From NCBI GenBank assembly GCA_016215705.1, contig JACRIR010000236.1, forward strand, positions 1 through 36,886: a stretch of 36,886 bases of DNA, written 5' to 3'. The position numbers and the translations under genes were made by a program. Below the pieces are notes generated by a model. The model was given only the letters and a program-made list of their open reading frames with translations. It did not search any database and was not told where the DNA came from. The DNA comes from Candidatus Poribacteria bacterium. Its GTDB lineage: Bacteria; Abyssobacteria; SURF-5. Below are positions 16,898 through 36,886 of this stretch, in pieces (the stretch's first letter is position 1; each line of letters begins with the position of its first letter).

Positions 16898-17116
16898 TTC
16901 AACGCGTTCCCCCCCATCTCGGCATTGATATATAACTAGTTAACAACAAAAGGCTTAAAACATAATGGATCATGCCTGGCAATATGGCAACGGTCTTGCG
17001 CACTAAAAAAGGGGGGAAGTCAACCGCGAACCTCCTGCAGGTTCACAACCGTATCGAGTTTGTTGAAAGGCGGCGCAAAAGTGTTAGACAGAAATCCGAG
17101 AGAAGGCAAGGACTTA

Positions 17117-19855
17117 ATGATGCCATTGTTGTGGGTTTGTTTCTTTCTTTCGGGTGCATGCGGCCTGGTATATGAGGTCACGTGGACTCGTATGCTGACG
17201 CTCGTTTTCGGCGCTTCAGTGTTTGCGATGAGCGCGGTCCTCACGGCCTATATGGGAGGATTAGCGCTTGGCAGCTATTTGTTCGGCGCAACCGTGGATA
17301 GGAGCAAGAATCCTCTCCGGCTATATGCCCTCCTTGAAATCGGAATCGGGCTATATGCTTTCATGCTGCCGCTTGTTGTGAAGCAGTTTGACCTTTTCTA
17401 CGTAACACTCTTTCGCATTGCGAACCCCTCGTTCTATGTTCTTTCGTTGATCCGTTTTGTTCTGGCCGTTGCGGTATTAATCATCCCAACGACTCTGATG
17501 GGCGCTACGCTTCCGGTGTTGAGTCGTTTTGCCGCCCGCCAACTGAAAAACATCAGTTGGAGTACGGGAAGCATATACGCGATGAACACGTTTGGAGCGG
17601 TGTTGGGATGCGCGGCGGCGGGTTTTTTCCTGATCGGCAAACTCGGAGTCATGCAGACGATCTACATCGCCGTCCTAACGAATCTCACGATTGGCGCAGC
17701 GATATATTTTCTTTTTGGAAAAGCGGATTCGCGCTGGATTGTGGACCAGGCAAGTGAGGCCGGCCTGTCTACAGCGGAGATTTCCCGCGTCAAGATGAAC
17801 GACGTCGGCCCGGCCTATCCGCCTTCTATCATCAGGATGGTGCTCTTGCTGTTCGCCACCTCCGGTTTCTGTTCTCTTGCATATGAGGTGTTGTGGACCC
17901 GCGCGCTCGTGTATCATCTCAATATCAGCGTCTACGCCTTCACGACAATGCTCACAACGTTCCTGGTGGGCATCGCGCTGGGGAGTCTTGTTTTTGCGCG
18001 CATCGCCGACAAGAGCCGGGACCCGCTTCTGTTGTTTTGCGCAATAGAGGTACTTATCGGGATTTCGGCCGTTTTGTCGCTTCCCGTATTTGGCAGGCTA
18101 TTCGGTGAGCTCGATAGGGCCCTCCCCTGGTTCGGCACAGTGAGCTGGCTTCCAAGCCCGAATAAGTTTGTCAAGTCGTTCCTCGTTATGTTTGTTCCTA
18201 CCTTCTTGATGGGAGCTGCGTTCCCGGTGGTAGTCAGGATATGCGTGCACAGTGTGAAGAGAGTGGGTGACAGCGTGGGCAAGCTTTATTCGGCCAACAC
18301 GCTGGGATGTATCCTGGGCTCCTTCGCAGCAGGCTTTGTCTTGATTCCGCTTTTCGGTATCGGCAAGAGCATCCTGATTCTCGGATGTGTGAATGCGGCG
18401 ATGGGTGTCGCCCTTTTCTGCGCACATCCCGGTTTCTCTCTGACAAGAAAGGGTTACGTGTTTGTAGGAGTGGCGCCCATTCTGCTGTTTTTCGGCCTGT
18501 CTGCTTCAAGGTTCGTGAACGTTCAATTCACCAGCGTGCTCGAGGACGTCGGCCGGACTCTGTACTACAAAGAGGGCATCGGCGCCACGGTGAAAGTATT
18601 CGAGAACAAGAACACCGGGAACCATGAGATAAGCATCGACGGGTATCCTGTCGCCTGCTCGGGAAACGAAGCGAACTGGCAGGGTCCTGAAATCCAACAG
18701 GCGTTGGCTCACTTCCCGATGCTGCTTCACTCGGACCCGAAAGAAGTCTGCATCATAGGTTTTGGAGCCGGCGGCACATCGTACAACGTGAGCTTGTATG
18801 ATGTTCGAAGCATTACATGTGTCGAACTTAGCCCCGAAGTGCCCAAAGCGGCGCCCTTGTTGGCCGACGTAAACCACAATATTTTGAACAATCCGAAGTT
18901 CAATCTTGTTGTTGAGGATGGCCGCAACTACATCTTGCGAACGGGAAAGCGATTCGACGTTATCACCGTCGATGCGACATCCCCAAAATTTGCCGGCAAC
19001 GTCTCGCTCTACACCAAAGAGTTCTATGATATGTGCAGGGAAAAACTCGCGCCTGGCGGAGTCATGGCGTTATGGACACCATATCATCTGCTCTCAAAAA
19101 GGGAAGACTTGATGTTGTTCAACACTTTCAGGCAATCATTCCCGCATTTTTCGGTGTGGTACACAAGTGGACGCGGCTATTTTGTGCTCTTAGGATCGAA
19201 TGAGCCCATCAAGATCGATTTCAACAACGTTGAGAAGCGAATGAGCCGGCCGGAAATCCAAAAAGAACTCGCCACGGTGGCTTTGAGAACTCCCTATGAT
19301 TTTCTGGCATGCCACATTATGAACGAAGATGCGGCGGATGCGTGGTTCGAGGGAATTCCCATCAATACCGACAACCACCCGTACATCGAATATTTCAGGG
19401 ATGACGGTAACGGCCTTGGCGAGCTTATATTTGACGGACGGGCCGGAGAGCCGACGGTTTATAATTTCGGCCGGACGCCGGAAGAAACCGCGCAAAAGAC
19501 GGCGGAATACAAGAGGTTCATGGAAGCAACCAATCACATAATTTCTGCGCATTACTGGCGGCAGAAAGGATACATCGGAGAAGCAATTAAACGGACGCAC
19601 CTTGCGCTCATCTCAGATCCGGTCAACCGCGAAGCGCTCATGCTCGACAGGTTCCTGGAAGATAAATACAAGATGATTTATTGGGCAAAGGCCGCCGCGG
19701 CTTACGAGAAGAAGGACGTAAACACCGCTGTCTTGGCTTGCGTCAACATACTCAAAGTCATTCCGAACGACCAGGATACTCTCAAGCTCCTTGCCGTGCT
19801 GCGTCGCAACATCGACACTCAGGACGGCGGCCCCAAATTCATGAGCGGGTCATAA
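17117..19855 (+). CDS. Membrane-fused spermidine-synthase-like protein with C-terminal helical repeats
   Basis: A 912-aa protein. The first ~470 residues are polytopic membrane helices in two related halves: CGLVYEVTWTRML near residue 15 and CSLAYEVLWTRAL near residue 252, each followed by a G-x-A-L-G-S motif. Residues ~475-760 are a Rossmann domain of the spermidine/spermine synthase family, with VCIIGFGAGGTS (about 545) as the nucleotide loop, CVELSPEVPK, and FDVITVDATSP (about 612-622). The C-terminal ~110 residues look like TPR-type helices. True aminopropyl transfer is uncertain, because the acidic residues of genuine SpeE enzymes are only partly visible. I chose the ATG at 17117 over a TTG at 17060 because AAGG lies just before it and membrane similarity starts there. 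Confidence 0.85.
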   Translation: MMPLLWVCFFLSGACGLVYEVTWTRMLTLVFGASVFAMSAVLTAYMGGLALGSYLFGATVDRSKNPLRLYALLEIGIGLYAFMLPLVVKQFDLFYVTLFRIANPSFYVLSLIRFVLAVAVLIIPTTLMGATLPVLSRFAARQLKNISWSTGSIYAMNTFGAVLGCAAAGFFLIGKLGVMQTIYIAVLTNLTIGAAIYFLFGKADSRWIVDQASEAGLSTAEISRVKMNDVGPAYPPSIIRMVLLLFATSGFCSLAYEVLWTRALVYHLNISVYAFTTMLTTFLVGIALGSLVFARIADKSRDPLLLFCAIEVLIGISAVLSLPVFGRLFGELDRALPWFGTVSWLPSPNKFVKSFLVMFVPTFLMGAAFPVVVRICVHSVKRVGDSVGKLYSANTLGCILGSFAAGFVLIPLFGIGKSILILGCVNAAMGVALFCAHPGFSLTRKGYVFVGVAPILLFFGLSASRFVNVQFTSVLEDVGRTLYYKEGIGATVKVFENKNTGNHEISIDGYPVACSGNEANWQGPEIQQALAHFPMLLHSDPKEVCIIGFGAGGTSYNVSLYDVRSITCVELSPEVPKAAPLLADVNHNILNNPKFNLVVEDGRNYILRTGKRFDVITVDATSPKFAGNVSLYTKEFYDMCREKLAPGGVMALWTPYHLLSKREDLMLFNTFRQSFPHFSVWYTSGRGYFVLLGSNEPIKIDFNNVEKRMSRPEIQKELATVALRTPYDFLACHIMNEDAADAWFEGIPINTDNHPYIEYFRDDGNGLGELIFDGRAGEPTVYNFGRTPEETAQKTAEYKRFMEATNHIISAHYWRQKGYIGEAIKRTHLALISDPVNREALMLDRFLEDKYKMIYWAKAAAAYEKKDVNTAVLACVNILKVIPNDQDTLKLLAVLRRNIDTQDGGPKFMSGS

Positions 19856-19981: not shown

Positions 19982-20935
19982 CTAATCATTTGCTTCGCCT
20001 TTATCTTCTTCCATCTGTTCACTTTCGTCTTTCGTCTTGGCCCCTTTCGTCTTGCTCCGTTCGCCTTCTATTTCCTTCATTTCCTTGGGTTTTTTCAACT
20101 CTGCGTCGATCATTTCCTGAAAACCCGCCAGGCTTCGCTTCTTCAACAACCTTCCGTTCACGAGGATGGTGGGCGTTCCTGTAATCCCCGCCTGCTGGGC
20201 ATCCTTGACATCCCGGCCGATGAGCTCCTGTATCGCCGGGCCCTGTATATCCTTATTGAACTTCTCCGCGTCAAGGCCCAATTCCTCGGCGATCTTCTGA
20301 ACGGTCGCATCGCTGAGGGCGCTCTGGTTCTGAAACAGCTTGTCGTGAAATTCCCAGTATTTTCCCTGGTCGTTTGCCGCAAGCGCCGCCGTGGCGGCTT
20401 TTCGCGCAAACTTGTGCATGCTGAGGGGGAGATTCTTGAAAACGAGTTTCACGTCATTCGGATATTTCTCCAGCACCTGCTGGAGCAGCGGCATGAGCCG
20501 CGCACAGTACGGTCATTGGAAGTCATTGAAGACCGCAATCGTTATCGGCGCGTTCTCGTAACCTTTGTAGGGCAGGCCGGACATGGACATCTCGTAGACC
20601 ATCTCCAATTGGATAGTCTTGAGAGTCTTCTTCGTGCCATCCGTTAGAATAAGTGTGTTGTCCTTCAGAGAATATGTCATCCTGTCGAACTTCTCCTCAA
20701 GCGGTATCCGGAGAATAGCCTTCTCATCCGACAGTGAATAGATGAGGATTTCCTTTGGCGCGAGAATATACAGCCATTGCCCGTCGCCCGATGTGGCGAT
20801 ATCCAGCGGCTCAGCGTCGAGATTGAGGCGCTTGCCCTCCGACCACTCCATGCCGGCATTGACCGGCATGGCCACATACCCCTGAAGTGAAATTAATACC
20901 ACGAGCAGGCACAACGTTTTGTTAAGTGTTTTCAA
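19982..20935 (-). CDS. Secreted DsbA-like thioredoxin-fold protein, probable selenoprotein (Sec-Pro-Tyr-Cys)
   Basis: The frame runs 317 codons with a single internal TGA at 20515-20513. Reading TGA as selenocysteine gives ITIAVFNDFQ-U-PYCARLMPLLQQV, and family members have Cys at this exact place (FQCPYC), so the active site becomes Sec141-Pro-Tyr-Cys144. The fold is otherwise complete: the cis-proline loop GITGTPTILVNG (Pro255) and the helical insert are intact, and no other stop occurs. The start is TTG at 20935 with AAGGAGG eight bases upstream. A signal peptide (LCLLVVLISLQGYVAMPVNA) directs it across the inner membrane. Residues ~25-125 form a strand-rich N-terminal domain, and the last ~35 residues are a charged tail. 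Role: thiol/disulfide or selenol redox chemistry in the periplasm. Alternatives are a pseudogene or a base error. Confidence 0.8.
20468..20485 (-). promoter_or_regulatory. Candidate bacterial SECIS hairpin
   Basis: In the mRNA, CUCCAGC-AGGU-GCUGGAG forms a perfect seven-pair stem with a four-base loop. The loop begins 34 bases after the UGA, within the 16-37 base range of the published bacterial SECIS consensus, and G is among its first two bases. The AGGU loop resembles the AGGUCU loop of the E. coli fdhF element. A second small hairpin (20488-20501) lies between the UGA and this one. Confidence 0.65.
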
Positions 20936-20943
20936 GGAACCGG

Positions 20944-20950
20944 CCTCCTT
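20944..20950 (-). promoter_or_regulatory. Ribosome-binding site fixing a TTG start
   Basis: AAGGAGG lies eight bases before the TTG at 20935 on the minus strand. It selects that codon over the earlier in-frame TTG at 20965 and places the signal peptide at the protein's N-terminus. Confidence 0.75.
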
Positions 20951-21800: not shown

Positions 21801-22051
21801 GTAAATAATATGCGTTGGGTTCGCGCAAGAAACCACGACACGAATTAACGATTTTGGATGTTGGTAGTACGGAGAGCAGGGAGACTTTAGGAAGAAGAAC
21901 AGGAAGAATCTTCTTCGTGCCCTTCATGACCTCTGCGGTTGATGATTGGTGTAATGCGTTCCGTTCGCGTTCCAATCTTCGTTCCTACGGGAAACTGTTT
22001 TGTCTCCATTTAGTGGGGATGGACTTATCCATTTCAGTTAAGGAGAGGGCA

Positions 22052-25000
22052 ATGAAAGCTTTCAGAATCTCCCGAAACACCTCTGTTCAACTTCACTCCT
22101 TGGTTTTGCTCGTCGCGTTGCTCCTGCTCTTGAGCCCCGTGAGAGCCGTCTGCGGCACGTTCTCGGACGATTTCGAGGACGGCGCTCTCGGATCGTGGTG
22201 GTATGTATTTGACGGGAATGTCGCAGATGCTGATGAGGACAGCGGTGTCTTGCATCTCGCCGGACCCGACGCTGAAGCGAGATTGTGGGGAGATGCTCTC
22301 GCATTCGGCCTGACTGAAAACCTAACCGGTGACGTCGTAATAACGGCTGAATTCAAGGCGATCAATCCTCCTCCCTTTACTATTTATGGAATCCTGGTTG
22401 GCAGAACGGATCGGTCAGAACAGGTCGGAGTGGCAATCTATCATGATTATGACCCTGTTCTGAATCGTGGCACAGTAATGTCCTTTAGCGATGAGAACGT
22501 TTTCTCTCCGCCTGGTTATCCCGCGATAGAGGAGATTGATGTGCCTGAGTTCAATCCAGGCGATGTCGTAACGCTCAAGCTTGAAAAGATCGCTGGTGTT
22601 GTTATGGGATACTATAGCCTTAATGGTCTGCCGTATACACAAATTGGCTCCGCCTCGGCCACAATGCCCGACCCATTCGTTGCGGCAATCTGTGGTGAGA
22701 ACTGGCCGCCGCTGGACGTGTTATCGCCGGAACAAAGGACTCCTTACGATTTCCATGTGGACAATTTTGAAATTGCCGGCGATTCGGTTCCCAATATGAC
22801 AACTGGCGGTGGACCGGACACTTTTGCGGACGATTTCGAGATTATGGATACGTATCTGCTTCCAGTCAATCCTCTCACCAAGTGGCGGCAGGTAGGTATC
22901 GGTCCGAGCAGCTTTTTTGAGAGCAGCACTGGTGCGGGCGGAACCGGCCTGTCCGCGCGATTGATCGACACAGACACCGGCTTCCGAGCGCCGTCTCTCG
23001 CAGCCGACAATGCGCAATACTTTGACTTATCCTCTCTCGTTCTCGAGAGCGAGATCCGTCCCAATCTTGGGGATGACGGAATCTATACGGGGGCAGGCGG
23101 CGTTGGGTTCGGTGTCTACGACGATACTGGCGACCATATAAGCGCAGGCATGGGGACAATGTTATGGTACGACTGGGATATATCAAAGTGGCGTTTCGAG
23201 CTCTTTGACACGCATGAGTATGAAACGGATCGCCATATCATCCAGCGCGACGGTATCGAGCAGTCCGTCCCCGTCGATATTGATCCTACCATTTTCCATA
23301 CAATCAGGATGGAGAAGTCGGGTAATGATCTCTCGGCCGTTCTCGACCGGACATGGGCTTTGTCCGGGACCCCCCGTTTGCCCATAGACATTGCCGGCGC
23401 GGGCCTATACACTCAGATTGGCAACTATCCCGCCGACGCTGACTTTTCATTTGACAATTTCTCAATGAACGCTGAGCCGGACGACCGCCATGTGGTGTTT
23501 CAGGATGTGGACGTCGTCGAGGACACACGCGCCAATGAACTGTTCCCCACATGGTCGCGCGACGGCAAGAAGCTGGCATTTACGCAAAAGGAACTAGAGG
23601 ACCAGTGGGCATTGGACGTGTGGGTGAAACAAATCGATCCGCCACTGCCCGCAGTGAAGTGCTCATGGAGCCATGACCGCGCCGAAGTGTTTGCTGTCCC
23701 CGCGTTCAGCCCGGACTATAGTTATGTAATCTTCACTGCGACGAGATCTACACCTCCTTACGAATTGGAGATAAAAAGGGCCAAGGCGGACGGCACAGGC
23801 GGGGTCGAGACAGTATTCCATGAACCAGGAATCGGCCTGCGCGCGTACGATGTCAGCCCCGGGTTCAATCTTCTTGCGGGTACAAAAGAGGAGTATTCAC
23901 CCGGCGCCAACAAGGGGAATCTCTTTGCGCTGCGCATAACCGATGATGGACGCCGTGTGGCGGGGACAGAAAAACTGCTTACTGATTTCCCCGGTGGTTC
24001 ATGGGGAGCATATGACCCACACTTTGACGCCGATGCTGACCGAATAGTCTTCATGAGTATAGAGGTATCTACGCCACCCGGTCCCAGAAACTCCGACCTC
24101 TATGTGCTCAATGGGGTGCAGGATATTCTCAACGGGGTTACCGCTCCCCCGACATCCTACACCGATCCGAGGCTCGTGCTTCTTGCCACCGGCCCGAATT
24201 TTCAAGCTACAGGTCGTTTCTCCGGCGACGGTTCATATGTATATTATTGTGAGGACGTCAATGGGACTTTCGACGTGGATTACATGGGGGCAAACCCATG
24301 GTTGCCGTGGCTCGATTTGAGTTCGGGCGCGCATTGGGAGATATTCGCGGTCAATCCCGACACTCCGTCTGAGAAAATCAAACTGAATTATTACAGACCA
24401 TACAGCCAGGGTATTCTTGCCGCTTCACCGGACGGAACAAAGCTTGCCTTCATATCCGACAATCGCGCGGATCTCGATCCAGATATCATCGACTCTGACC
24501 TGTATATCGTCACGCTCAAAGTGAGAGAGGCCATCGTTGCGATAGCGGGCGGCGACATCGTTGACGGCAGCGGCACGACGCTCGGTGTCCCTGCCGCCTC
24601 GCTTTCCGAAGACACTACGATTTCGATCAAGACGCCCCTTCCCGGCGATATCCCCGCGCCCGACACACTTCCGGACGGGCTCAAGAACATAGCGTTTGCA
24701 CGCGTGATCGAGGCCGAATCGCCGACCGCCACGATTGACCCGCTCAACCCACCAATTCTGACGATTCAATACACGGATGAGGAGATGACGGGCCTTTCCG
24801 AACTGAGCCTCTGCATTTATGTTTTTAATGAAGATTTATCCAGGTGGGAGGCGCTTCCCGGCTGCATGGTTGACCCTGTCGCTAACACTGTATCCGCTCC
24901 CCTACCCCATCTCTCGATGTTTGTCGCCAGCGCCGCGCTCGACACCGACGGCGACGGAATACTGGACGACGGCGATTACAGTAATGTGGCCGGAGACAAT

Positions 25001-28000
25001 CCTTGCGCGGACGGCGTGACCGCAAATTGCGACGATAACTGCTTCGACCTCGCGAATCCGTTGCAGGAAGACTCCGATGCAGACCTCGCAGGAAACGCTT
25101 GTGATAATTGCCCTGCAATTTCCAATGCCAATCAGGCTGACGGCGACGTAGACGATGTTGGCGACGTTTGCGACAACTGCTCCGCGGTCTCCAATCCGAA
25201 CCAGGCCAATTTCGATGGCGATTCGATGGGTGACGCCTGCGACCCGGACATCGACGGCGACGGACTGACGAACGAGTTTGACTCGGATATCGACGGCGAC
25301 GGAGCGCTCAACCTCGAAGACGCTTTCCCATACGATTCGTCCGAATGGGCCGACAACGATAACGACGGCGTCGGTGATAATGCCGACCCGGACGACGACA
25401 ATGACAACGTCGCCGATATTGTCGACATCTGCCCGTTTGATCCCGCCAACGACATTGACGGCGACGGCCTCTGTGGCGATGTAGACAATTGTCCATCTGT
25501 CAATAATGCCGACCAAGCCGACAGTGATAGCGACGGCATCGGCGACGCCTGTGATTCCTGTAACGACATCGATGGAGATGGAGTGTGCGATGTTGTCGAC
25601 AATTGTCCGTCAGTCGCCAATTCTGATCAAGCGGATACAGATGGTGATGGTGTAGGTAATGCGTGTGAAGCGGCCGCCATTGAGCTAATATACGTTTTCC
25701 AAAGAGAGTGGGGCAGCCTTGGCTCCGGCCCCGGTCAGTTTGGCAGTGATTTGGGGCCGCGTGGAATTGCCGTTGATGAGGCCGGCAACGTCTACGTTGC
25801 GGATTACGGAAATCAACGCATTCAGAAGTTCTCAAGATGCGGCGCCTACTTGGGTGAATGGTCAACAGGTTACTTGGCCCAAATTTATTATTATGAAGGC
25901 TATCTCTATTGCCTGTACCCGCCTGGCGGAATCAAGAAATACGATACAAACGGAAACCTCATTTGGAACGTCCCTGTTTCTATCCCATCGTGGTCGGCTG
26001 GAATGACCATGGATAGCGACCACAATCTGCAGATTTCTATTGCGATTGATCGCAAAGTCGTTAAATACGACCTCAATGGCGCCTATCTTGGCGAATACCC
26101 TGCCACCAATGCCAACTACGACTATGCCGACAACAGGATTCACGCGTCTCCGGACGGCTACATATATATCAGAATAGGCGGCGAAGGCGGGGATATCAAG
26201 AGATATACGAACGCGGGAGTCGATACCGGCTGGAGTCGCGATATAGGGCTGGAGGATTTCCTCTATATTGACTCTTCCGGCAATTTCTACACCGGTTTGA
26301 ATGGGGTAGTGAATAAATACGATTCCAATTGGAATCTCTTGGCAACAGTCGGGTCCGGCGTTGGTTCGGGTCCCGGACAATTCGGCGCAACGTTCGGTCA
26401 AATGACAGAAGATTCCATTGGGAACCTGTACTTCTCCGACGGGCCGAATTACCGAATCGAGGTATTCGCCTCGGAGTGGCAGGGAACTTTCGGCGGTGCC
26501 CAAGAAGACGCAGCCTATGGCGCTGCGCCGACAGATGACGGCGGTTACGTCATTATTGGAGAAACCACTTCCTATGGCGCCGGTTCATATGACATATTGA
26601 TGATCAAGACTGACGCTGATGGAAATACGCAATGGTCGAAGACATTCGGCGGAACCGGCATCGAGAATGGCTTCAGTGTCGAGCAGACAGCCGACGGTGG
26701 CTATATTGTCGCTGGATTGACGACTTCTTTCGGCGCAGGATCATATGATGCATGGCTGATCAAGACCGATGGCAGCGGCGCTGAAGAATGGAGTAGAACC
26801 TTTGGTGGAGGTGGTTGGGACGAAGGGTATTCGGCCCAACAGACATCCGATGGCGGATACCTCATTCTGGGCCGCACAGATTCTTATGGCGCTGGGTCGC
26901 ACGATGCATGGCTGATCAAGACCGACCCAAGCGGGATCGAGGAGTGGAGCGAGACTTTCGGTGGCACAAACTGGGATGAGGCGCGCGACGTCAGGCAGAC
27001 GGGCGATGGCGGATATATCATCTCTGGATGGACGGAGTCTTTTGGAGCAGGTGGAAAAGACGCATGGCTTCTCAAGCTTGATGCCGACAGGAACTCGCAA
27101 TGGAGCAAGACCTTTGGCGGGTCTCTTTGGGATGCAGCAGGTGAAGTGCAATTGACTTCCACAGGCGGCTATATTACATGTGGATACACAGAATCCTACG
27201 GAAATTCAGGTTCGTATGACATATGGCTGATCGAAACCGACGCCATTGGGAATATGGTTTGGTCGCGGACATTTGGGGGCCCGGGCACCGAGCTCGGCGG
27301 TATGGTTCTAAAAACCGCTGACGGAGGCTATATTGTTGGCGGAGGCAGGGAACCCTACGGGTCGGCCGATGCCTTGTTGATAAAAACGGATGCCGCCGGA
27401 AACGAAGTTTGGAGCAGAGTCATAGGAGGAGCGGACTACGACACAATTCAAGACCTCATACAGGAAGGCAGCGAAAGCTATCTCGGCGTCGGTTGGACAC
27501 GTTCGTACGGCGCTGGGCTCTCGGACATTTGGCTCCTCAAGGTTAATCTGAATGAAGACAGTGATCTGGATGGCATATGTGGCGAGGTGGATAATTGCCC
27601 GTTTATTGCCAATATCGATCAATTTGATCTTGACAGCGACGGTTTGGGCGATGAGTGCGACAACTGCCCCAATACGGCCAATTCCGATCAGGCCGACATG
27701 GACAGCGACGGAATGGGTGACGTGTGCGATGACGACACGGATGGCGACCATTGTCCGAACGTCGCTACTGAGATAATGCCGGGGATAATGGTTCCTGCTG
27801 ATCCGAACCCCAACGTGTTCAGCCCGGATACCGATGCAGACTATCTGGGAGACGATTGTGACAACTGTCCGAATGTGGTGAATCCGGGTTGGGCTGATAC
27901 CGATACAGACGGCCTTGGCGATTCGTGCGACAACTGTCCCAATGCGGCGAATGCGGACCAGTCCGACATCGACGGCGACGGGATGGGTGACGTGTGCGAT

Positions 28001-31000
28001 GACGACACGGATGGCGACCATTGTCCGAACGTCGCTACTGAGATAATGCCGGGGATGATGGTTCCTGCTGATCCGAACCCCAACGTGTTCAGTCCGGATA
28101 CCGATGCAGACTATCTGGGAGACGACTGTGACAACTGTCCGAACGTGATGAATCCGGGTTGGGCTGACACCGATACAGACGGCCTTGGCGATTCGTGCGA
28201 CAACTGCCCGAGTGCGGCGAATGCGGACCAGTCCGACATCGACGGCGACGGGATGGGTGACGTGTGCGATGACGACACCGACGGCGACCATTGTCCGAAC
28301 GTCGCTACTGAGATAATGCCCGGGATGATGGTTCCTGCTGATCCGAACCCCAATGTGTTCAGTCCGGATACCGATGCAGACTATCTGGGAGACGACTGTG
28401 ACAACTGTCCGAATGTGGTGAATCCGGGTTGGGCTGACACCGATACAGACGGCCTTGGCGATTCGTGTGACAACTGTCCCAACGCTGCAAACGCCGACCA
28501 GTCAGACACAGATGGTGACGGTACTGGCGACGCCTGTGATTTTGAAGGAGGTGACTTCCGTGACGATTTTGAAGATGGAGTTCTTTCGTCGACTTGGGGT
28601 CTGAATCCTGACGGCACACAAAGACCCATGTGGCTGTATGATTGGGTCGCGCCAGGAATCACAGTGACTGAGGAAGGCGGCGAAATACGATTCTCCGGCA
28701 CTCCATCTGTTTGGCAAGACGCACACTTGACCACCTTTGGCTTCGACGGCACAGGCTCTGTCGACGCTTCCGTCGATTTCAGAAGAGCAGATGGTGGCAC
28801 GAGTCCGTGTGTCAATCTGCTGATTGGGTCTCGTGTGCACGAACAAGACAGCGAGTCTCCCTTCCTCTTTGTTGGAGTGGCGCTGTGCGAAAGCGGATAC
28901 TACCGACTCTACAATACGATCACCGAATGGAATTCCATCTGGCTGCGGCCTGCTTTTGGAGATGAGCAGAATGTTTCCCACAGACTGAGGGTCACTTACG
29001 ATGGCGCAACGGAAACAGTGACCTACTATGTGGACGGAGTCTCTTACTATAGCGAAACCGTTCGTATGGGCAAGAAGCTGTGCGCCACTCTGCGCGTCGG
29101 CGGCGGCTACTCTTACCGTGACGTCCGGTTCGACAACTTCGTTTTGTTTGCGCAACGAGCGGTCCAGCCGCCCGTGGATTCCCTCGATGTCACACTCGGA
29201 GAAATCTCTGAGCTTGAACCGACCGAGCAAGATACCATTTTCTCGGCATGGTCACCCGACGGTAAGAAGGTTGCTTACCATGTCCGCAGCGCTACCAACT
29301 CGACTCTGTGGAACATCTGGGTGAAGGAGGTAAATTCGACAGCGCCGGCATATCCGCTCACCACGGACTCCGACAATGTCAAATACTACACCCACCTGTG
29401 CTGGACACCTGACGGCTCCGGCGTCATCTTCACATCAGGGTGGGGAAACGCTACAGATACCTATTTAAGAATCGCAAACTCGGACGGTTCCGGAACCCGT
29501 GAACTGCTCAGGGAGAACGGCGTCGCATATGCGTCTCCCGACGTGGCCAACGGTCCATTCGGGAGGCAGATGATCTTCACAAAGAACGCCAACCTCTATT
29601 CGATTGCCATTGAGGAGAATGGCGAGCTTGCCGCTCAACCGGGCGACGCAATCCAGTTGACAAATATTCCCAGCGCAGAAATCTACATGCCCCGGTGCTC
29701 GCATGACGGCGACAAGATCGCCTTCGTCCGCTACTTTGATTGGTCCGACAGCGATATCTACCTGCTGCAGGGAGCAAACGATATCCACTCGAATGCATCG
29801 CCTGTCGTTACTTCGTATTTTGACACGCGCATGCTGCCGGTGAGCGACAATGCAAACGTCGCAGGCACTCCCGCAGTTTCTCCGGACGGAAAGTATGTGT
29901 ACTTCACCGAAGATACGAGCGGGAACTACAACATCGACTATGACCTCTCGGGACAAACATGGGCGCTGAAATTCCCGCACACAAACTTCGACCTGTTCTA
30001 TGCGAACGTGGAATCCGGCGCTCCCGTCACCCCACGGCGGATAACCAGTGATTCCACAAACCAGGGTAATTTGAGCGCTTCTCCCGACGGCACAATGCTG
30101 GCGTTCATTGATGACAGCGACCGGGACGGCGACACTGAATTCGACGGAAACATGTATATCGGCACGCTGGTGAAATCGCAGGTTGTTCCGGCAGGAAACG
30201 AAGCGATCATCGAAGATGCGTCAGGCTGCACAATGACGATCCCAGCCGGCGCGCTGCCCGTTGAAACTGAAATAACGATTCAGACCCCGTTCCCTGGCGC
30301 CGAACCATCGGTAGACACTTTGCCGGATGAAACATTGCTCGTGCTTGCCCGTGAATTCGGGCCGCCCGGAACGACATTCACCGAGCCGATCACTATTGTG
30401 ATGACTTACACGGATGAGCAAGTTGAGGCTGAGGGCCTCATCGAGAGCACACTCCAAATCGCGGTCTATCGCAACGGAGCGTGGGAGCCAATCGGCGGAG
30501 TCGTTGACACATTAGGAAACACAGTGACTGCGCAAATTGACCATTTCAGTGTCTTTGGGCTATATGGTGAGTTCATAGACTGCAACAATAACGGCGTCCC
30601 CGATCCTACCGAACCCGATTCCGATGGCGACGGCCTGATTGACGGCTGCGACAACTGTCCAAACGCAGTCAATCCGGGACAGGAAGATTGCGACGGGAAT
30701 GGAATCGGCGACGCTTGCGACACCGTCAACCCGGCCGCAATCGACTCGGACTGCGACGGCGTGGACGACAACTGCAACGGCGTGACAGACGAAGGATATT
30801 CTCCAACCGCTACAATCTGCGGGACCGGCGAATGCGCTTCCACCGGCCAATTGCTCTGTGTTAGCGGCGCTCTGCAAGATACGTGTGTGTCCGGCTCGCC
30901 GACCGGCGCCGACGCAGATTGCGATGGATTGGACCAGAACTGCAATGGCGCGGCGGATGATGCCTATATCCCAATTCCGACATCGTGCGGAATAGGCGAA

Positions 31001-34000
31001 TGCGCGTCCACCGGTCAGATGATCTGCGTCGGCGGCGCATTGCAGGACACCTGCACTGTCGGTTCACCGACCGGCGCTGACGACGACTGCGACGGCCTCG
31101 ATCAGAACTGTAACGGTCTTGCCGATGATTCTTATGCTCCGACGCCGACAAGCTGTGGCACAGGTGAGTGCGCAGCGAGCGGCCAGATGATCTGCTCCAA
31201 TGGCAGCCTGCAGGACACGTGTGTCTCCGGAACTCCCACAGACGAAGTGTGTGATGGTTTGGATAACGATTGTGACGGTGTTGCGGATGATGGACTGGTT
31301 TCTACCCCCACGACTTGCGGAATAGGCGAGTGCGCGTCCACCGGCATCCGAAACTGCACGGGCGGACAATGGGTTGACACCTGTACACCAGGGTCTCCGA
31401 CCGGAACCGATAACGACTGCGACGGTCTCGACCAGAACTGCGACGGAACAGCGGATGATGGCTATGCTCCGACGCCCACAACCTGCGGAGTAGGCGCGTG
31501 CGCGTCCACTGGCCAAATGCTCTGCAGCGGCGGCAGCCTGCAAGACACGTGCGTCGCCGGAACCCCCACCGGCGAAATCTGCGACGGGCTTGACAACGAC
31601 TGCAATGGGAGCGTTGATGACGGCCTCGACGCTGATACGGACGGAGTCTCGGATTGCATCGACAATTGTCCGTCAATATGGAATGCGGGTCAATCTGACA
31701 TTGACTCCGACGGCGTCGGCGACGCGTGTGATACCGACACATTCTTTGATGACTTCAATGACCCAACGACGTATATGCCTCCTGTCAACCCGAACACCAG
31801 ATGGCGACAAATCGGGACTGCGTTTGGAACGTTCTCGACTGACGCGGGTTTCGGTGGAACCGGGTACTCGGCGCGAATGATTGATGCGGATTCAAGCTTC
31901 GATATGCCGGTGCTTGGGGCCGACAATGGACAATACTTCGATCTTTCGTCTGCAACCGTTCAGGCCCTGGTGCGCGCGAACAGCATCTACGGCAGCGGCA
32001 TCGTCGGATTCGGTGTAAACGATGACGCAGGCGAGGGTCTGTGTGGCGGTATCGCGGCGGGATTAGTGAATAGTATAAATACCGGCGGCGCCTGGGTCTT
32101 CGTGCTTTTCGACATCAACGATTACGATACCGCGCCGCATGGTATCGCCTTTATGCCGCTGGCGCCGTTTGGGATCAATCCATTCGAGTTCCATCAGATC
32201 AAGGTGGAGAGCCTGAACGGACAGGTCACGGCAACACTCGACGAAACATGGACATTGAGCGGCGCTCCTCGTCTGGCCATAGATGTTGCGGGCACGGGAA
32301 TCGGTCCCAACGATCTAGGCGATTTCTCGTTCGACAACTTCTCGATGAAAGGTCAGCCGGACAACCGCCATGCCGTGTTCAAGGACGTAGACATAGTCGA
32401 GGACACCCCTGCGGACGAAATCTTCCCGTCGTGGTCGCGCGACGGAAAGAAGATCGCCTACATTCAAGACGAGATGGACACTGGTTCGTGGAACGTGTGG
32501 GTCAAGCAGATTGATCCGCCGACGCCCGCGGTCAAGTGCACGCAGAATTCGGATAAGACTTTCATTTATGCGGTGCCGGCATTTAGCCCGGACTACAGCC
32601 ACGTAATCTTCACTGGATTCAACACCGACTACTCACGGCTCGAACTCAAGAGAGCCAATGCCGACGGCACGGGCGGAGTGGAAACAATTCTCACTGAAGT
32701 CGGCGCCAATTACTGGGGTTACGACATCAGTCCATCTTTGAACCTTCTTGTCGGCGCGAAAGAGTCGTCCTCCGGGACCATTTCAAACCTGTACTCCGTT
32801 CAAGTTACACCTGACGGGCTTCCTGTTGCCGGGACGTATAAGCCCCTCACCGAGTTCCCGGCCGGATCGCCTAGGGTTTACGACCCGCACTTCGACGCAA
32901 CGTGTGACCGCGTGGCCTTTATGAGTTACGTGAACCCGCCGACGGATACGGACCTTTACGTGCTCAACGGCGTGCAGGATATTTTGAGTGGAGTCACGAA
33001 TCCACCGACCTCCTATTCCGATTCCAGACTCACCCTTATCGCCACGGGCCCGAATGCTCAGGCAACCCCGCGATTCTCCGGAGACGGAACACTTGTCTAC
33101 TACTGCGAAGATGTCAACGGGACTTTCAATTACGACTATTTCGGTAATAATCCGGGACTCCCGTGGCTCACCTCATTGTCCGGCGCTCACTTTGAGATTT
33201 TCGCAGTCAATACTCAGAATCCGGCCGAAAGGATTAAACTCAATTACTATAGGCCGTACACTCAGGGAGTCCTGTCTGCTTCGCCGGATGGAACCATGCT
33301 CGTGTTCTCTTCCGACAAGCGCGAAGACGGCGACGGCGTCGTTGATGCCGACCTGTATGTTGTCACGCTGAAAGTGAAGGAGGAGATAGAGGCTTCGACG
33401 GGTGGACAAATTGTTGACGGCAGCGGTACGACTCTCGATATTCCGGGTGGCTCGGTATCCGAGGATACCGTTATATCCGTGGAGACTCCTCTCCCCGGCG
33501 CCATACCCTCTCCCGATACTCTGCCCGGCGGCATGCAGAATATCGCGCTCGCGCGAGTGGTCGAGGCGGAATCACCGACTGCGACCATTAATCCGAATAA
33601 TCCGCCAATACTTACAATTCATTACACGGAAGAGGAAATAGCAGGCCTGCATGAGCTTTCGTTGCGCATCTACGTATTCAACGAAGATACTCTGAGCTGG
33701 GAGGCAATCGGACAATGCCCCGACAATCCGGCTCAAGACTGCACCGTGATTGATCCTGTCGCGAATACTATCTCTGCGCCATTGCCGCACCTGTCTATGT
33801 TCGCCGTCAGCGGCGCAGTGGATACAGATGGCGACGGAATATTGGATGACGGCGATTACAGCAACGTGGTAGGCGACAACCCGTGCGCGGACGGCGTGAT
33901 CGCGAACTGTGACGATAACTGTTTTGACCTCGCAAACGCCGCGCAGGAAGACTCCGACGCAGACTTCATCGGTGACGGTTGTGACAATTGCCCGAATGCG

Positions 34001-36886
34001 CCGAATGCCGACCAGTCGGATGCTGACATTGACACTGTCGGCGACATTTGCGACAACTGCCCTGCAGTATCCAATCCCAATCAGGCTAACATCGACGGCG
34101 ATACGATGGGCGACGTCTGTGACCCTGACATCGACGGCGACGGCATAGCTAACGAGTCTGACCCGGATATTGACGGCGACGGCGTTCTCAACGGTGACGA
34201 CGCATTCCCATACGATCCGACCGAAACGGCCGACACCGATAATGACGGCATTGGCAACAACGCAGACCCTGACGACGACAATGACGGCGTCGCGGATATC
34301 GCGGATATCTGTCCCCTCGATCCCGCCAACGACATCGACGGTGACGGCGTTTGTGGCGATGTCGACAACTGCACGACAGTCGGCAATCCGGATCAAGCGA
34401 ACACAGATGGTGATGCTTTCGGCAATGCCTGCGATATATGCCCGAACGACCCGGACAACGACGCGGATAGCGACGGCATATGCGGCGACGTGGATGCATG
34501 CCCGAACGATCCGAACAACGATATCGACAGTGACGGCGTTTGTGGCGATGTCGATAATTGCCCGACGATTGTCAATTCTAATCAGGCGGACCCCGATGGC
34601 GACGGCATAGGCTCTGCTTGTGACGACGTGGAGTCGCTCGGCTCCGACTACTCGGCCGGTTGTCTCGTCATCCGGAACGGACAGACTTTGGTCACCAATG
34701 GCTACGACATGAATATCGGCCCAATATGCGGAATCGTGATCGAAGCCGGTGGAATCCTGGATGCAAGCTCCGGCGCAGGAGGCGATTCAATCATTACCGA
34801 CTCAGCGAGCGGTACAGGCCCATCAAGCGCGTGGCGCTGTGACGGAAGGTTCGTCGCAGGGGCAAGCACGGTGGTCTTCAACGGCGTAGCCGCCTCGGAA
34901 ATCCAGGTCTTTATGCCGCAGATAAACAGCTTCTTCAGGCTCATTTCAGACGCCGACAGTGTGGCGGCGCCGGGCACAATCTACGTCACGGATGGGCTCG
35001 AGGTGAGAAGCGGCTCGTTCCAGGTCGGTAATGGCTCTACATTCCACGACGTGTTGGTTGCTCCCGCAAGTCTGCTGCAGCCCGGCGGCCAAATCAATGT
35101 TAGTGGCGACTGGATAAACAATGGCAGCTTTGTCAACGGTAGCGTGTCGTTCACAGGCACGGGAGACTTATTTGCCGGCGCTTCTCATTTCAACAAACTC
35201 ATTGTGGCATCCGGCGTACGCACTGTGCTCGGAGACACCTTGTCCGTTGACGGCGCACTCAGGGTGCAGATGAGCGGCGCTCTGCAGAGAACGTCAGGAG
35301 GGTTGACTCTTCAAACGAACTCCACCGTTGGTATTGATAGTGGAGGCGCGTTTGTTCTCGAAGGAAATAACCAATGGATAGTGGGCGCAGGCTCGACTGT
35401 GACCATTCAAGACGGAGCCGTCGCAACGCTCCACGGGACCGATGCCGGCAACATGCTGACCCTCAGGTCCTCCGTGGCCGGAACCGCCTGGCATCTAATA
35501 GACCTGACCATGATGTCAAGCAATCCATCCGTCACGTACGCTGACGTGCGGGATTCTGACGCCGGCTCGGGGAGCCTCGTGTTCGCCGAACACTCGATTG
35601 ACTCCGGCAACAACCTGAACTGGGTGTTCTTGGTTGATAGTGACGGCGACGGCATCTACGACTATTACGATAATTGCGACGCCGTTTCCAATCCGGATCA
35701 GGCGGATGCGGACACTGACACCGTTGGCAATGTCTGTGATAATTGCCCGGCAGTTCCGAATCCGGACCAGGCGGACATGGACAGTGATGGAATTGGCAAT
35801 GCATGCGACCCATGGCCAAATGACCCGCAGAACGATATCGACGGCGACGGCGTGTCCGGCGAGATAGACAACTGCCCGACAGTGGCTAATCCGGGGCAGC
35901 AGGACTGCAATAGTAACGGATTGGGCGATGCCTGCGACTCGATAAATCCGACCGCAGATGATTCCAACTGCGACAATATAGATCAGAACTGCAATGGTGT
36001 CGCAGACGACGGTTATGTCCCAACGCCGACCTCGTGCGGTGTCGGCGCATGCGCTTCCACTGGCCAGATGGTTTGCGTAGCTGGCAGCTTGCAAGACACT
36101 TGCTCGGCAGGTTCACCTACCGGCGCGGATGACGAGTGCGACGGTCTCGATCAGAACTGCAACGGTGTTGCTGACGACGCATATGTTCCGACTGCCACTT
36201 CCTGCGGAGTAGGCGAATGCGCGGCTACCGGCCAGATGGTCTGTGTCGCCGGCAGCTTGCAGAATACGTGCTCCGCTGGTTCGCCGACAGGCGCGGATGA
36301 TGACTGCGACGGCCTCGACCAGAACTGCAACGGCGTTGCTGACGACGCTTATGTTCCAACAGCCACAAACTGCGGAGTAGGCGAATGCGCGTCCACCGGT
36401 GAGATGATCTGCGTTGCCGGCAGCCTGCAAGACACTTGCGCTGCCGGTTCGCCGACTGGCGCGGATGACGAATGCGATGGCCTTGACCAGAACTGCAATG
36501 GCGTTGCTGACGATGCCTACGCTCCGACAGCAACAAGCTGCGGAGTAGGTGAATGCGCCTCCGCCGGCCAGATGGTTTGTGTCGCCGGTGCTCTGCAAGA
36601 CACTTGCTCGGCTGGTTCGCCGACAGGCGCTGACGACGAATGCGATGGCCTTGACCAGAACTGCAATGACGTAGCTGACGATGCCTATGTTCCGACAGCA
36701 ACAAGCTGCGGAGTAGGCGAATGCGCGGCTACCGGCCAGATGATTTGCGTTGGCGGTACATTGCAGGATACTTGCACGCCTGGGGCTCCATCAGCCGAAA
36801 TCTGTGACAGCATGGATAACGATTGTGACGGTCAGGCTGATGAAGGGGTGACACAAACATTCTATCGGGATGCTGACGGTGACACC
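22052..36886 (+). CDS. Giant secreted multidomain repeat protein, 3'-truncated by the window end
   Basis: One frame without a stop spans 4,945 codons and is still open at the last base. A signal peptide (SLVLLVALLLLLSPVRA) follows the start, which has AGGAGAGGG just upstream. Order by residue: jellyroll/LamG-like (36-250 and 257-480), PD40/TolB-like propeller (483-820), ZU5-like (822-962), TSP3 repeats (962-1208), NHL-type propeller (1209-1478), seven ~52-aa W-S-x-T-F-G-G repeats (1479-1832), TSP3 (1833-2165), jellyroll (2166-2380), PD40 (2387-2703), ZU5-like (2709-2840), TSP3, MopE-like array (~2899-3197), jellyroll (3229-3432), PD40 (3440-3775), ZU5-like (3776-3921), TSP3 (to 4194), beta-rich segment (to 4527), TSP3, MopE-like array (4634 on). 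Its acidic D-x-D-x-D-G motifs imply extensive calcium binding at the cell surface or outside. Function (adhesion, matrix) is inference, and the C-terminal anchor is not visible. Confidence 0.88.
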   Translation, partial: MKAFRISRNTSVQLHSLVLLVALLLLLSPVRAVCGTFSDDFEDGALGSWWYVFDGNVADADEDSGVLHLAGPDAEARLWGDALAFGLTENLTGDVVITAEFKAINPPPFTIYGILVGRTDRSEQVGVAIYHDYDPVLNRGTVMSFSDENVFSPPGYPAIEEIDVPEFNPGDVVTLKLEKIAGVVMGYYSLNGLPYTQIGSASATMPDPFVAAICGENWPPLDVLSPEQRTPYDFHVDNFEIAGDSVPNMTTGGGPDTFADDFEIMDTYLLPVNPLTKWRQVGIGPSSFFESSTGAGGTGLSARLIDTDTGFRAPSLAADNAQYFDLSSLVLESEIRPNLGDDGIYTGAGGVGFGVYDDTGDHISAGMGTMLWYDWDISKWRFELFDTHEYETDRHIIQRDGIEQSVPVDIDPTIFHTIRMEKSGNDLSAVLDRTWALSGTPRLPIDIAGAGLYTQIGNYPADADFSFDNFSMNAEPDDRHVVFQDVDVVEDTRANELFPTWSRDGKKLAFTQKELEDQWALDVWVKQIDPPLPAVKCSWSHDRAEVFAVPAFSPDYSYVIFTATRSTPPYELEIKRAKADGTGGVETVFHEPGIGLRAYDVSPGFNLLAGTKEEYSPGANKGNLFALRITDDGRRVAGTEKLLTDFPGGSWGAYDPHFDADADRIVFMSIEVSTPPGPRNSDLYVLNGVQDILNGVTAPPTSYTDPRLVLLATGPNFQATGRFSGDGSYVYYCEDVNGTFDVDYMGANPWLPWLDLSSGAHWEIFAVNPDTPSEKIKLNYYRPYSQGILAASPDGTKLAFISDNRADLDPDIIDSDLYIVTLKVREAIVAIAGGDIVDGSGTTLGVPAASLSEDTTISIKTPLPGDIPAPDTLPDGLKNIAFARVIEAESPTATIDPLNPPILTIQYTDEEMTGLSELSLCIYVFNEDLSRWEALPGCMVDPVANTVSAPLPHLSMFVASAALDTDGDGILDDGDYSNVAGDNPCADGVTANCDDNCFDLANPLQEDSDADLAGNACDNCPAISNANQADGDVDDVGDVCDNCSAVSNPNQANFDGDSMGDACDPDIDGDGLTNEFDSDIDGDGALNLEDAFPYDSSEWADNDNDGVGDNADPDDDNDNVADIVDICPFDPANDIDGDGLCGDVDNCPSVNNADQADSDSDGIGDACDSCNDIDGDGVCDVVDNCPSVANSDQADTDGDGVGNACEAAAIELIYVFQREWGSLGSGPGQFGSDLGPRGIAVDEAGNVYVADYGNQRIQKFSRCGAYLGEWSTGYLAQIYYYEGYLYCLYPPGGIKKYDTNGNLIWNVPVSIPSWSAGMTMDSDHNLQISIAIDRKVVKYDLNGAYLGEYPATNANYDYADNRIHASPDGYIYIRIGGEGGDIKRYTNAGVDTGWSRDIGLEDFLYIDSSGNFYTGLNGVVNKYDSNWNLLATVGSGVGSGPGQFGATFGQMTEDSIGNLYFSDGPNYRIEVFASEWQGTFGGAQEDAAYGAAPTDDGGYVIIGETTSYGAGSYDILMIKTDADGNTQWSKTFGGTGIENGFSVEQTADGGYIVAGLTTSFGAGSYDAWLIKTDGSGAEEWSRTFGGGGWDEGYSAQQTSDGGYLILGRTDSYGAGSHDAWLIKTDPSGIEEWSETFGGTNWDEARDVRQTGDGGYIISGWTESFGAGGKDAWLLKLDADRNSQWSKTFGGSLWDAAGEVQLTSTGGYITCGYTESYGNSGSYDIWLIETDAIGNMVWSRTFGGPGTELGGMVLKTADGGYIVGGGREPYGSADALLIKTDAAGNEVWSRVIGGADYDTIQDLIQEGSESYLGVGWTRSYGAGLSDIWLLKVNLNEDSDLDGICGEVDNCPFIANIDQFDLDSDGLGDECDNCPNTANSDQADMDSDGMGDVCDDDTDGDHCPNVATEIMPGIMVPADPNPNVFSPDTDADYLGDDCDNCPNVVNPGWADTDTDGLGDSCDNCPNAANADQSDIDGDGMGDVCDDDTDGDHCPNVATEIMPGMMVPADPNPNVFSPDTDADYLGDDCDNCPNVMNPGWADTDTDGLGDSCDNCPSAANADQSDIDGDGMGDVCDDDTDGDHCPNVATEIMPGMMVPADPNPNVFSPDTDADYLGDDCDNCPNVVNPGWADTDTDGLGDSCDNCPNAANADQSDTDGDGTGDACDFEGGDFRDDFEDGVLSSTWGLNPDGTQRPMWLYDWVAPGITVTEEGGEIRFSGTPSVWQDAHLTTFGFDGTGSVDASVDFRRADGGTSPCVNLLIGSRVHEQDSESPFLFVGVALCESGYYRLYNTITEWNSIWLRPAFGDEQNVSHRLRVTYDGATETVTYYVDGVSYYSETVRMGKKLCATLRVGGGYSYRDVRFDNFVLFAQRAVQPPVDSLDVTLGEISELEPTEQDTIFSAWSPDGKKVAYHVRSATNSTLWNIWVKEVNSTAPAYPLTTDSDNVKYYTHLCWTPDGSGVIFTSGWGNATDTYLRIANSDGSGTRELLRENGVAYASPDVANGPFGRQMIFTKNANLYSIAIEENGELAAQPGDAIQLTNIPSAEIYMPRCSHDGDKIAFVRYFDWSDSDIYLLQGANDIHSNASPVVTSYFDTRMLPVSDNANVAGTPAVSPDGKYVYFTEDTSGNYNIDYDLSGQTWALKFPHTNFDLFYANVESGAPVTPRRITSDSTNQGNLSASPDGTMLAFIDDSDRDGDTEFDGNMYIGTLVKSQVVPAGNEAIIEDASGCTMTIPAGALPVETEITIQTPFPGAEPSVDTLPDETLLVLAREFGPPGTTFTEPITIVMTYTDEQVEAEGLIESTLQIAVYRNGAWEPIGGVVDTLGNTVTAQIDHFSVFGLYGEFIDCNNNGVPDPTEPDSDGDGLIDGCDNCPNAVNPGQEDCDGNGIGDACDTVNPAAIDSDCDGVDDNCNGVTDEGYSPTATICGTGECASTGQLLCVSGALQDTCVSGSPTGADADCDGLDQNCNGAADDAYIPIPTSCGIGECASTGQMICVGGALQDTCTVGSPTGADDDCDGLDQNCNGLADDSYAPTPTSCGTGECAASGQMICSNGSLQDTCVSGTPTDEVCDGLDNDCDGVADDGLVSTPTTCGIGECASTGIRNCTGGQWVDTCTPGSPTGTDNDCDGLDQNCDGTADDGYAPTPTTCGVGACASTGQMLCSGGSLQDTCVAGTPTGEICDGLDNDCNGSVDDGLDADTDGVSDCIDNCPSIWNAGQSDIDSDGVGDACDTDTFFDDFNDPTTYMPPVNPNTRWRQIGTAFGTFSTDAGFGGTGYSARMIDADSSFDMPVLGADNGQYFDLSSATVQALVRANSIYGSGIVGFGVNDDAGEGLCGGIAAGLVNSINTGGAWVFVLFDINDYDTAPHGIAFMPLAPFGINPFEFHQIKVESLNGQVTATLDETWTLSGAPRLAIDVAGTGIGPNDLGDFSFDNFSMKGQPDNRHAVFKDVDIVEDTPADEIFPSWSRDGKKIAYIQDEMDTGSWNVWVKQIDPPTPAVKCTQNSDKTFIYAVPAFSPDYSHVIFTGFNTDYSRLELKRANADGTGGVETILTEVGANYWGYDISPSLNLLVGAKESSSGTISNLYSVQVTPDGLPVAGTYKPLTEFPAGSPRVYDPHFDATCDRVAFMSYVNPPTDTDLYVLNGVQDILSGVTNPPTSYSDSRLTLIATGPNAQATPRFSGDGTLVYYCEDVNGTFNYDYFGNNPGLPWLTSLSGAHFEIFAVNTQNPAERIKLNYYRPYTQGVLSASPDGTMLVFSSDKREDGDGVVDADLYVVTLKVKEEIEASTGGQIVDGSGTTLDIPGGSVSEDTVISVETPLPGAIPSPDTLPGGMQNIALARVVEAESPTATINPNNPPILTIHYTEEEIAGLHELSLRIYVFNEDTLSWEAIGQCPDNPAQDCTVIDPVANTISAPLPHLSMFAVSGAVDTDGDGILDDGDYSNVVGDNPCADGVIANCDDNCFDLANAAQEDSDADFIGDGCDNCPNAPNADQSDADIDTVGDICDNCPAVSNPNQANIDGDTMGDVCDPDIDGDGIANESDPDIDGDGVLNGDDAFPYDPTETADTDNDGIGNNADPDDDNDGVADIADICPLDPANDIDGDGVCGDVDNCTTVGNPDQANTDGDAFGNACDICPNDPDNDADSDGICGDVDACPNDPNNDIDSDGVCGDVDNCPTIVNSNQADPDGDGIGSACDDVESLGSDYSAGCLVIRNGQTLVTNGYDMNIGPICGIVIEAGGILDASSGAGGDSIITDSASGTGPSSAWRCDGRFVAGASTVVFNGVAASEIQVFMPQINSFFRLISDADSVAAPGTIYVTDGLEVRSGSFQVGNGSTFHDVLVAPASLLQPGGQINVSGDWINNGSFVNGSVSFTGTGDLFAGASHFNKLIVASGVRTVLGDTLSVDGALRVQMSGALQRTSGGLTLQTNSTVGIDSGGAFVLEGNNQWIVGAGSTVTIQDGAVATLHGTDAGNMLTLRSSVAGTAWHLIDLTMMSSNPSVTYADVRDSDAGSGSLVFAEHSIDSGNNLNWVFLVDSDGDGIYDYYDNCDAVSNPDQADADTDTVGNVCDNCPAVPNPDQADMDSDGIGNACDPWPNDPQNDIDGDGVSGEIDNCPTVANPGQQDCNSNGLGDACDSINPTADDSNCDNIDQNCNGVADDGYVPTPTSCGVGACASTGQMVCVAGSLQDTCSAGSPTGADDECDGLDQNCNGVADDAYVPTATSCGVGECAATGQMVCVAGSLQNTCSAGSPTGADDDCDGLDQNCNGVADDAYVPTATNCGVGECASTGEMICVAGSLQDTCAAGSPTGADDECDGLDQNCNGVADDAYAPTATSCGVGECASAGQMVCVAGALQDTCSAGSPTGADDECDGLDQNCNDVADDAYVPTATSCGVGECAATGQMICVGGTLQDTCTPGAPSAEICDSMDNDCDGQADEGVTQTFYRDADGDT
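26487..27545 (+). repeat. Seven ~52-residue propeller-like protein repeats
   Basis: Within the giant gene, units of about 150-160 bases encode the pattern TFGG...DGGYIVxGxT-S-GAG-D-WLIKTD-G-W. The T-F-G-G starts lie near 26489, 26642, 26801, 26954, 27110, 27269 and 27419 (the last as VIGG). The number and strand pattern suggest one closed beta-propeller. Units have diverged at the DNA level, so they are old. Confidence 0.75.
27695..28504 (+). repeat. Three near-identical 270-bp tandem repeats (TSP3-type)
   Basis: Units start at 27695, 27965 and 28235 and differ at only a few percent of positions. Each codes for 90 residues with two C-D-N-C-P thrombospondin type 3 motifs and the segment ATEIMPGxMVPADPNPN. 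Such low divergence indicates recent tandem duplication or gene conversion, and the copy number may vary between strains or be miscounted in assembly. Confidence 0.85.
30745..31640 (+). repeat. MopE-like Cys/Asp-rich repeat array 1 (five units)
   Basis: Each unit couples the putative metal-binding motif C-D-G-x-D-x-N-C-x-G-x-x-D-D to a four-cysteine segment (C-G-x-G-x-C, x-x-G-x-x-x-C, D-T-C-x-x-G). Two units use the variant CDGLDNDCDG or CDGLDNDCNG. The array follows a short TSP3 stretch and precedes the fourth jellyroll domain. Units are diverged. Confidence 0.75.
35970..36886 (+). repeat. MopE-like repeat array 2, 168-bp period, cut by the window end
   Basis: Units of exactly 168 bases (56 residues, six cysteines each) recur: the cysteine of the D-E/D-C-D-G-L-D-Q-N-C motif lies at 36137, 36305, 36473 and 36641. 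They are much more alike than those of array 1, suggesting recent expansion. The last visible unit changes to CDSMDNDCDG and the sequence then leaves the repeat (VTQTFYRDADGDT). Confidence 0.8.

Follow-up and report, generated by a model that had tools for sequence, protein, structure and literature searches.

How is a reading frame to be understood when a single TGA stands precisely where a redox protein would carry its catalytic cysteine? The question is raised by a gene of Candidatus Poribacteria, on the minus strand of a 36,886-nucleotide stretch of DNA (contig JACRIR010000236.1; 'the window' below is this whole stretch). The coding sequence (19982..20935, minus strand) starts with TTG at 20935, after a Shine-Dalgarno motif, AAGGAGG, read directly in the sequence (20944..20950, minus strand) and separated from the TTG by an 8-nt spacer. 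It ends with TAG at 19984-19982, and encodes 317 residues if we include a selenocysteine (Sec) at residue 141, where TGA (20513..20515, minus strand) is the sole internal stop of the frame. The initial annotation had joined two same-frame pieces (20935-20516 and 20512-19982) across this TGA, and had placed it at the first cysteine of a C-P-Y-C-type site. Reading of the minus-strand frame bears out both points, the TGA (20515-20513) being residue 141 in F-N-D-F-Q-U-P-Y-C. The same annotation saw here a selenoprotein. We come to the same view, with a probability of about 0.95, and take pseudogene and sequencing error to be excluded, because the genome holds the Sec machinery, the codon is TGA or a Cys codon, and nothing else, in homologues, and a SECIS hairpin downstream is conserved with Sec and follows it on the tree.

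The protein on either side of the TGA

The chain begins with a hydrophobic segment, a probable signal peptide (residues 1-28; 20852..20935, minus strand), with a model helix at residues 4-19; relatives have hydrophobic starts too. From this hydrophobic N-terminus and model helix, the protein is predicted to be exported to the periplasm. A two-blade beta-propeller-like domain comes next (residues 29-118; 20582..20851, minus strand), followed by a DsbA-like thioredoxin domain (residues 119-285; 20081..20581, minus strand), which is recognized by Pfam and PDB matches. The latter comprises the features of its family: the active site, here U-P-Y-C (residues 141-144; 20504..20515, minus strand; from the sequence and alignments), and a cis-Pro loop, G-T-P-T, at residues 253-256. 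Its matches to the DSBA/Thioredoxin_4 families PF13462 (E 7.7e-30; 104.7 bits) and PF01323 (E 9.1e-24; 84.7 bits) far exceed the curated cut-offs of 23.2 and 25.6 bits, respectively, and its best PDB match by sequence is 3gyk. The full-length AlphaFold2 model, built with 44 sequences, has a mean pLDDT of 91.9, and the fold matches of its catalytic domain are 3gyk (Z 21.6), Wolbachia alpha-DsbA2 (21.3), BdbD (20.9) and Caulobacter ScsC (20.4). The Sec codon is aligned with the otherwise invariant redox cysteine of homologues; by the chemistry of CxxC and UxxC proteins, Sec141 would be the attacking residue and Cys144 its partner.

A highly charged C-terminal tail (residues 286-317; 19985..20080, minus strand) had been listed by the initial annotation among the unusual additions to the protein. 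The tail is real, but it is not conserved: the proteins of the relatives that were compared stop at about residue 285, and the DNA of the tail (window 19985-20080) has matches among dispersed AAGACGAAAGG-type repeats of the same genome, on seven further contigs (L002-L008). Judging from these matches, the frame has run into a copy of a repeat scattered over the genome, and we reject the tail as a functional part of the protein. Among the neighbouring genes in the window no redox partner was found. One of them, at 17060-19855 (plus strand), encodes a 931-residue protein whose N-terminal part is membrane-like, matches MFS weakly and is followed by a Spermine_synth domain. Another, at 21815-36886 (plus strand), is a frame of 5,024 residues, open at the end of the window, with many D-x-D-x-D-G calcium-binding-type repeats.

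The second addition, a strand-rich N-terminal domain, is both real and conserved, and can now be described as a pair of beta-propeller blades. Modelled alone with AlphaFold2 (pLDDT 91.3), it has propellers as its top Foldseek matches, including the designed two-blade Pizza2-SR (TM 0.75 by target length), and a Z of about 10 to WD40 propellers (VIA). Propeller matches in Pfam are weak and restricted to some members, with none for the window protein's own domain. The model has seven strands, four in the first blade and three in the second, and the segment that precedes the first strand, unpaired in the model, looks like a usual outer strand. As the propeller is unclosed in the monomer, we infer a ring made of several chains. 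Closure of each two-blade domain by a neighbouring chain is a proposal to which the model lends a little under even odds; such a ring would most likely comprise three chains, hence six blades, and would present several U-P-Y-C domains.

In which direction would these domains work? Searches for DsbB and VKOR in four genomes (G000, G001, G002 and G093) found none, while the DsbD membrane domain (DsbD_TM) was found in three of them. On this account we somewhat favour disulfide reductase or isomerase work over oxidation driven by DsbB or VKOR; the electrons would then come from a DsbD-type membrane protein. The missing DsbB and VKOR may be assembly gaps in the gene's own 92%-complete draft genome, though the three other genomes agree. 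A DsbD-type protein of G000 (locus L158:343-2718, contig C229) deserves mention for itself: in its 792 residues a transglutaminase-like core precedes DsbD_TM, and a thioredoxin domain forms the C-terminus, a combination of which we know no other instance.

The most serious alternative accepts the UxxC selenoprotein as genuine but has it act, as a monomer, like any DsbA-type oxidase, where the propeller part would be a substrate- or surface-binding domain. It draws on the DsbA-family domain itself and on the presence of BdbD among the top fold matches. That the DsbB or VKOR partner was not found in four genomes, and that the two-blade domain stays unclosed in the monomer model, makes it rather unlikely in our eyes.

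Sec machinery and the site codon in relatives

Whether the UGA is read as Sec depends in the first place on its host. The genome to which the window belongs is a draft of 5.47 Mb in 270 contigs, 92% complete. The initial annotation had proposed to look there for the Sec genes, and all of them are present. The gene for tRNA-Sec lies on contig C59 (68 bits for a cut-off of 47; anticodon TCA, hence tRNA-Sec(UCA)); selB (C228:43728-45614; 371.5 bits, cut-off 242) and selA (C228:46049-47410; 580 bits, cut-off 268) are side by side on contig C228; and selD is found on C134 (391 bits). This selD has a single UGA of its own, within S-S-G-G-U-A-C-K; the hairpin that comes after it has the loop AGGUUCU, as read by eye.

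In related genomes, the nearest homologues come from G002 (56%, Cys), G093 (47%, TGA) and G001 (47%, Cys). A scan of 84,980 genomes yielded 80 loci, mostly from Thermodesulfobacteriota. Wherever the motif was found, the site codon is TGA, TGC or TGT, so that the comparison of homologues proposed by the initial annotation returns Cys or TGA and nothing else; TGA is the site codon in the more distant L035 and L046 as well. Homologues are present in two genomes that lack selA (G044 and G058), with Cys at the site. When members were read again in a fixed frame, the TGA proved to be single in each of 34 Sec members and absent from 34 Cys members. Stops scattered along the homologues, which the initial annotation would have counted against a selenoprotein, were therefore not what was found. 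Two facts argue that the TGA is not there by chance: half of the members of the tree (36 of 72, the window protein counted) share a TGA at this position, and a second internal TGA is absent from all 34 Sec members in which it was looked for.

On this tree (36 Sec, 36 Cys) 18 changes between Sec and Cys are needed, at least 13 of them on well-supported branches. In loci of the Desulfobulbales type, such as L093, L107 and L112, the gene is flanked on one side by a divergent block that looks like trigger factor-ClpP-ClpX, and the proteins encoded downstream resemble PhoH and YbeY, all names having been given by eye. Cultured relatives with the Sec form include Desulforhopalus singaporensis DSM 12130 (L093) and Desulfopila sp. 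IMCC35008 (L092).

Two hairpins downstream of the UGA

The messenger downstream of the UGA folds into two hairpins, at nucleotides 15-28 and 31-48 when the U of UGA is numbered 1. The second, CUCCAGC-AGGU-GCUGGAG (20468..20485, minus strand; loop at 20478-20475), is the SECIS hairpin identified by folding, covariation and the tree test; its AGGU loop comes 34 nt after the UGA. The bSECIS model expects a G within the first two positions of the loop, then G or U, 16-37 nt from the UGA (PMC13188914), and the hairpin of the window satisfies this model as quoted there. A bacterial SECIS, which the initial annotation had recommended looking for, is thus present downstream of the TGA and conserved with Sec. 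Of 40 Sec sequences, 38 keep all of the inner six pairs and a loop that reads AGGU or AGUU, the distant L035 and L046 being the ones that do not; of 43 Cys sequences, 1 does. Pairing of the helix reaches 96.3% in the Sec alignment, where five of the seven pairs show compensatory two-sided changes; in the Cys alignment, the figure is 54.8%. Synonymous recoding, used as a control, reached the seven pairs of the window in about 1% of trials. Kinship was taken into account with 13 independent Sec/Cys pairs placed on supported branches of the tree. On average, 12.7 of these pairs have the hairpin on the Sec side, and no pair shows the reverse (sign test, median p 0.00024). SelB carrying Sec-tRNA-Sec would decode the UGA as Sec, guided by this hairpin and its AGGU loop.

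A covariance model of the SECIS gave no further strong hit in the gene's own genome, as expected of a model trained on the family of the window protein. The selD of that genome likewise combines a UGA with a distant AGGU-loop hairpin, so that a loop far from the UGA may be the usual arrangement for SelB in bacteria of this kind. Among Cys proteins, one member, L135, still keeps the SECIS hairpin; in a paralogue with CPAC at the site and a different N-terminal part (L163; G001:C94:10410-10466), the sequences of both hairpins are almost identical to those of the window. The SECIS-like hairpins of L135 and L163 are probable relics of a change from Sec to Cys. With its many exchanges between Sec and Cys, its SECIS in step with them and these two Cys relics, the family lends itself well to the study of Sec gain and loss.

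The first hairpin, GCGGC-UCAU-GCCGC (20488..20501, minus strand), occupies the space between UGA and SECIS. It was identified by folding, and is more stable in Sec members: the segment has a mean z of -1.65 in Sec and -0.42 in Cys sequences (p 4e-7, in a comparison uncorrected for relatedness). Its 3' arm lies near columns 24-28 and its 5' arm is found in two registers, which is why pairing at a fixed register is kept in only 54%. Such a spacer would shorten the distance between the UGA and the binding site of SelB. The full proposal, that the two-blade fragment closes in trans, probably in a ring of three chains, to make a multi-Sec seleno-isomerase, and that in addition its messenger uses a two-hairpin SECIS with a distance-shortening spacer, is put forward as tentative, at odds of roughly one in three.

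Could the TGA be an accident? A single base change, TGC to TGA, would be enough to turn a Cys codon into a stop through mutation or sequencing error, and the contig belongs to a draft genome. The same TGA is nevertheless found in 35 further members of the tree, as well as in the distant L035 and L046, the hairpin tracks Sec on the tree, and apart from the TGA the frame is both open and conserved; pseudogene and sequencing error, which we consider extremely improbable, are rejected on these grounds. No better is the prospect of two genes, a short exported propeller protein stopping at the TGA and a thioredoxin-like protein started internally, which the in-frame ATG at 20494, after the TGA, would permit: we reject it because the second piece would be without both the entire U-x-x-C site and its domain's first beta strand, the Cys homologues are single genes, and the SECIS is conserved. 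Genes of this selenoprotein branch are likely to come out split or truncated in standard annotation.

Comparison with known systems

UxxC selenoproteins that resemble DsbA are an already known kind. DsbA-like and DsbG-like forms have been described (PMC1088965; PMC1794560) and are listed in a later catalogue (PMC13188914), where 'DsbA-like protein form 1', with PF01323, appears in Table 1; a Sargasso Sea family is found in PMC1088965. The window protein has in common with them a thioredoxin/DsbA domain, Sec for the first Cys of CxxC and a downstream bacterial SECIS. The members aligned here have the two-blade N-terminal domain in addition, by which they may differ from the listed proteins. The widespread branch that combines a signal peptide, two propeller blades and a DsbA domain is apparently undescribed: we found no description of a propeller-DsbA selenoprotein in the open-licence literature, nor any via Rcas_1661.

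The nearest named family is NF041057, the Rcas_1661 family thioredoxin-like (seleno)lipoproteins ('DsbG-like', PMC13188914), with a related UxxC thioredoxin-like domain; 44 of 44 aligned members match it. The window protein, however, reaches 84.5 bits for a cut-off of 190, matches only profile positions 72-246 and has a different N-terminal part. We therefore reject its membership, and note that NCBI's present cut-off leaves such a protein far outside the nearest family that has a name.

Alpha-DsbA2 and ScsC proteins are described as homotrimeric disulfide isomerases (PMC6450060; PMC8900818; PMC5524982). ScsC of Proteus and Caulobacter and Wolbachia alpha-DsbA2 share with the window protein the catalytic fold (Z about 19-21), which in all of them is preceded by an additional N-terminal part. 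They use Cys where the window protein has Sec, and the N-terminus of alpha-DsbA2 is predicted to be helical, in contrast to propeller blades here. For the catalytic domain, the model suggests a likeness of fold only with these trimeric isomerases, as BdbD matches almost as well.

Ring closure by fragments has its own precedents. The designed Pizza2 fragments, which form rings, are like the N-terminal domain in having about 90 residues and two blades (Pizza2-SR, TM 0.75), and in nature the lectin RSL is a two-blade propeller fragment that assembles into a ring. Neither Pizza2 nor RSL has a redox domain, and for the window protein the ring assembly is a proposal drawn from its model, in which an unclosed two-blade domain amounts to a direct structural prediction.
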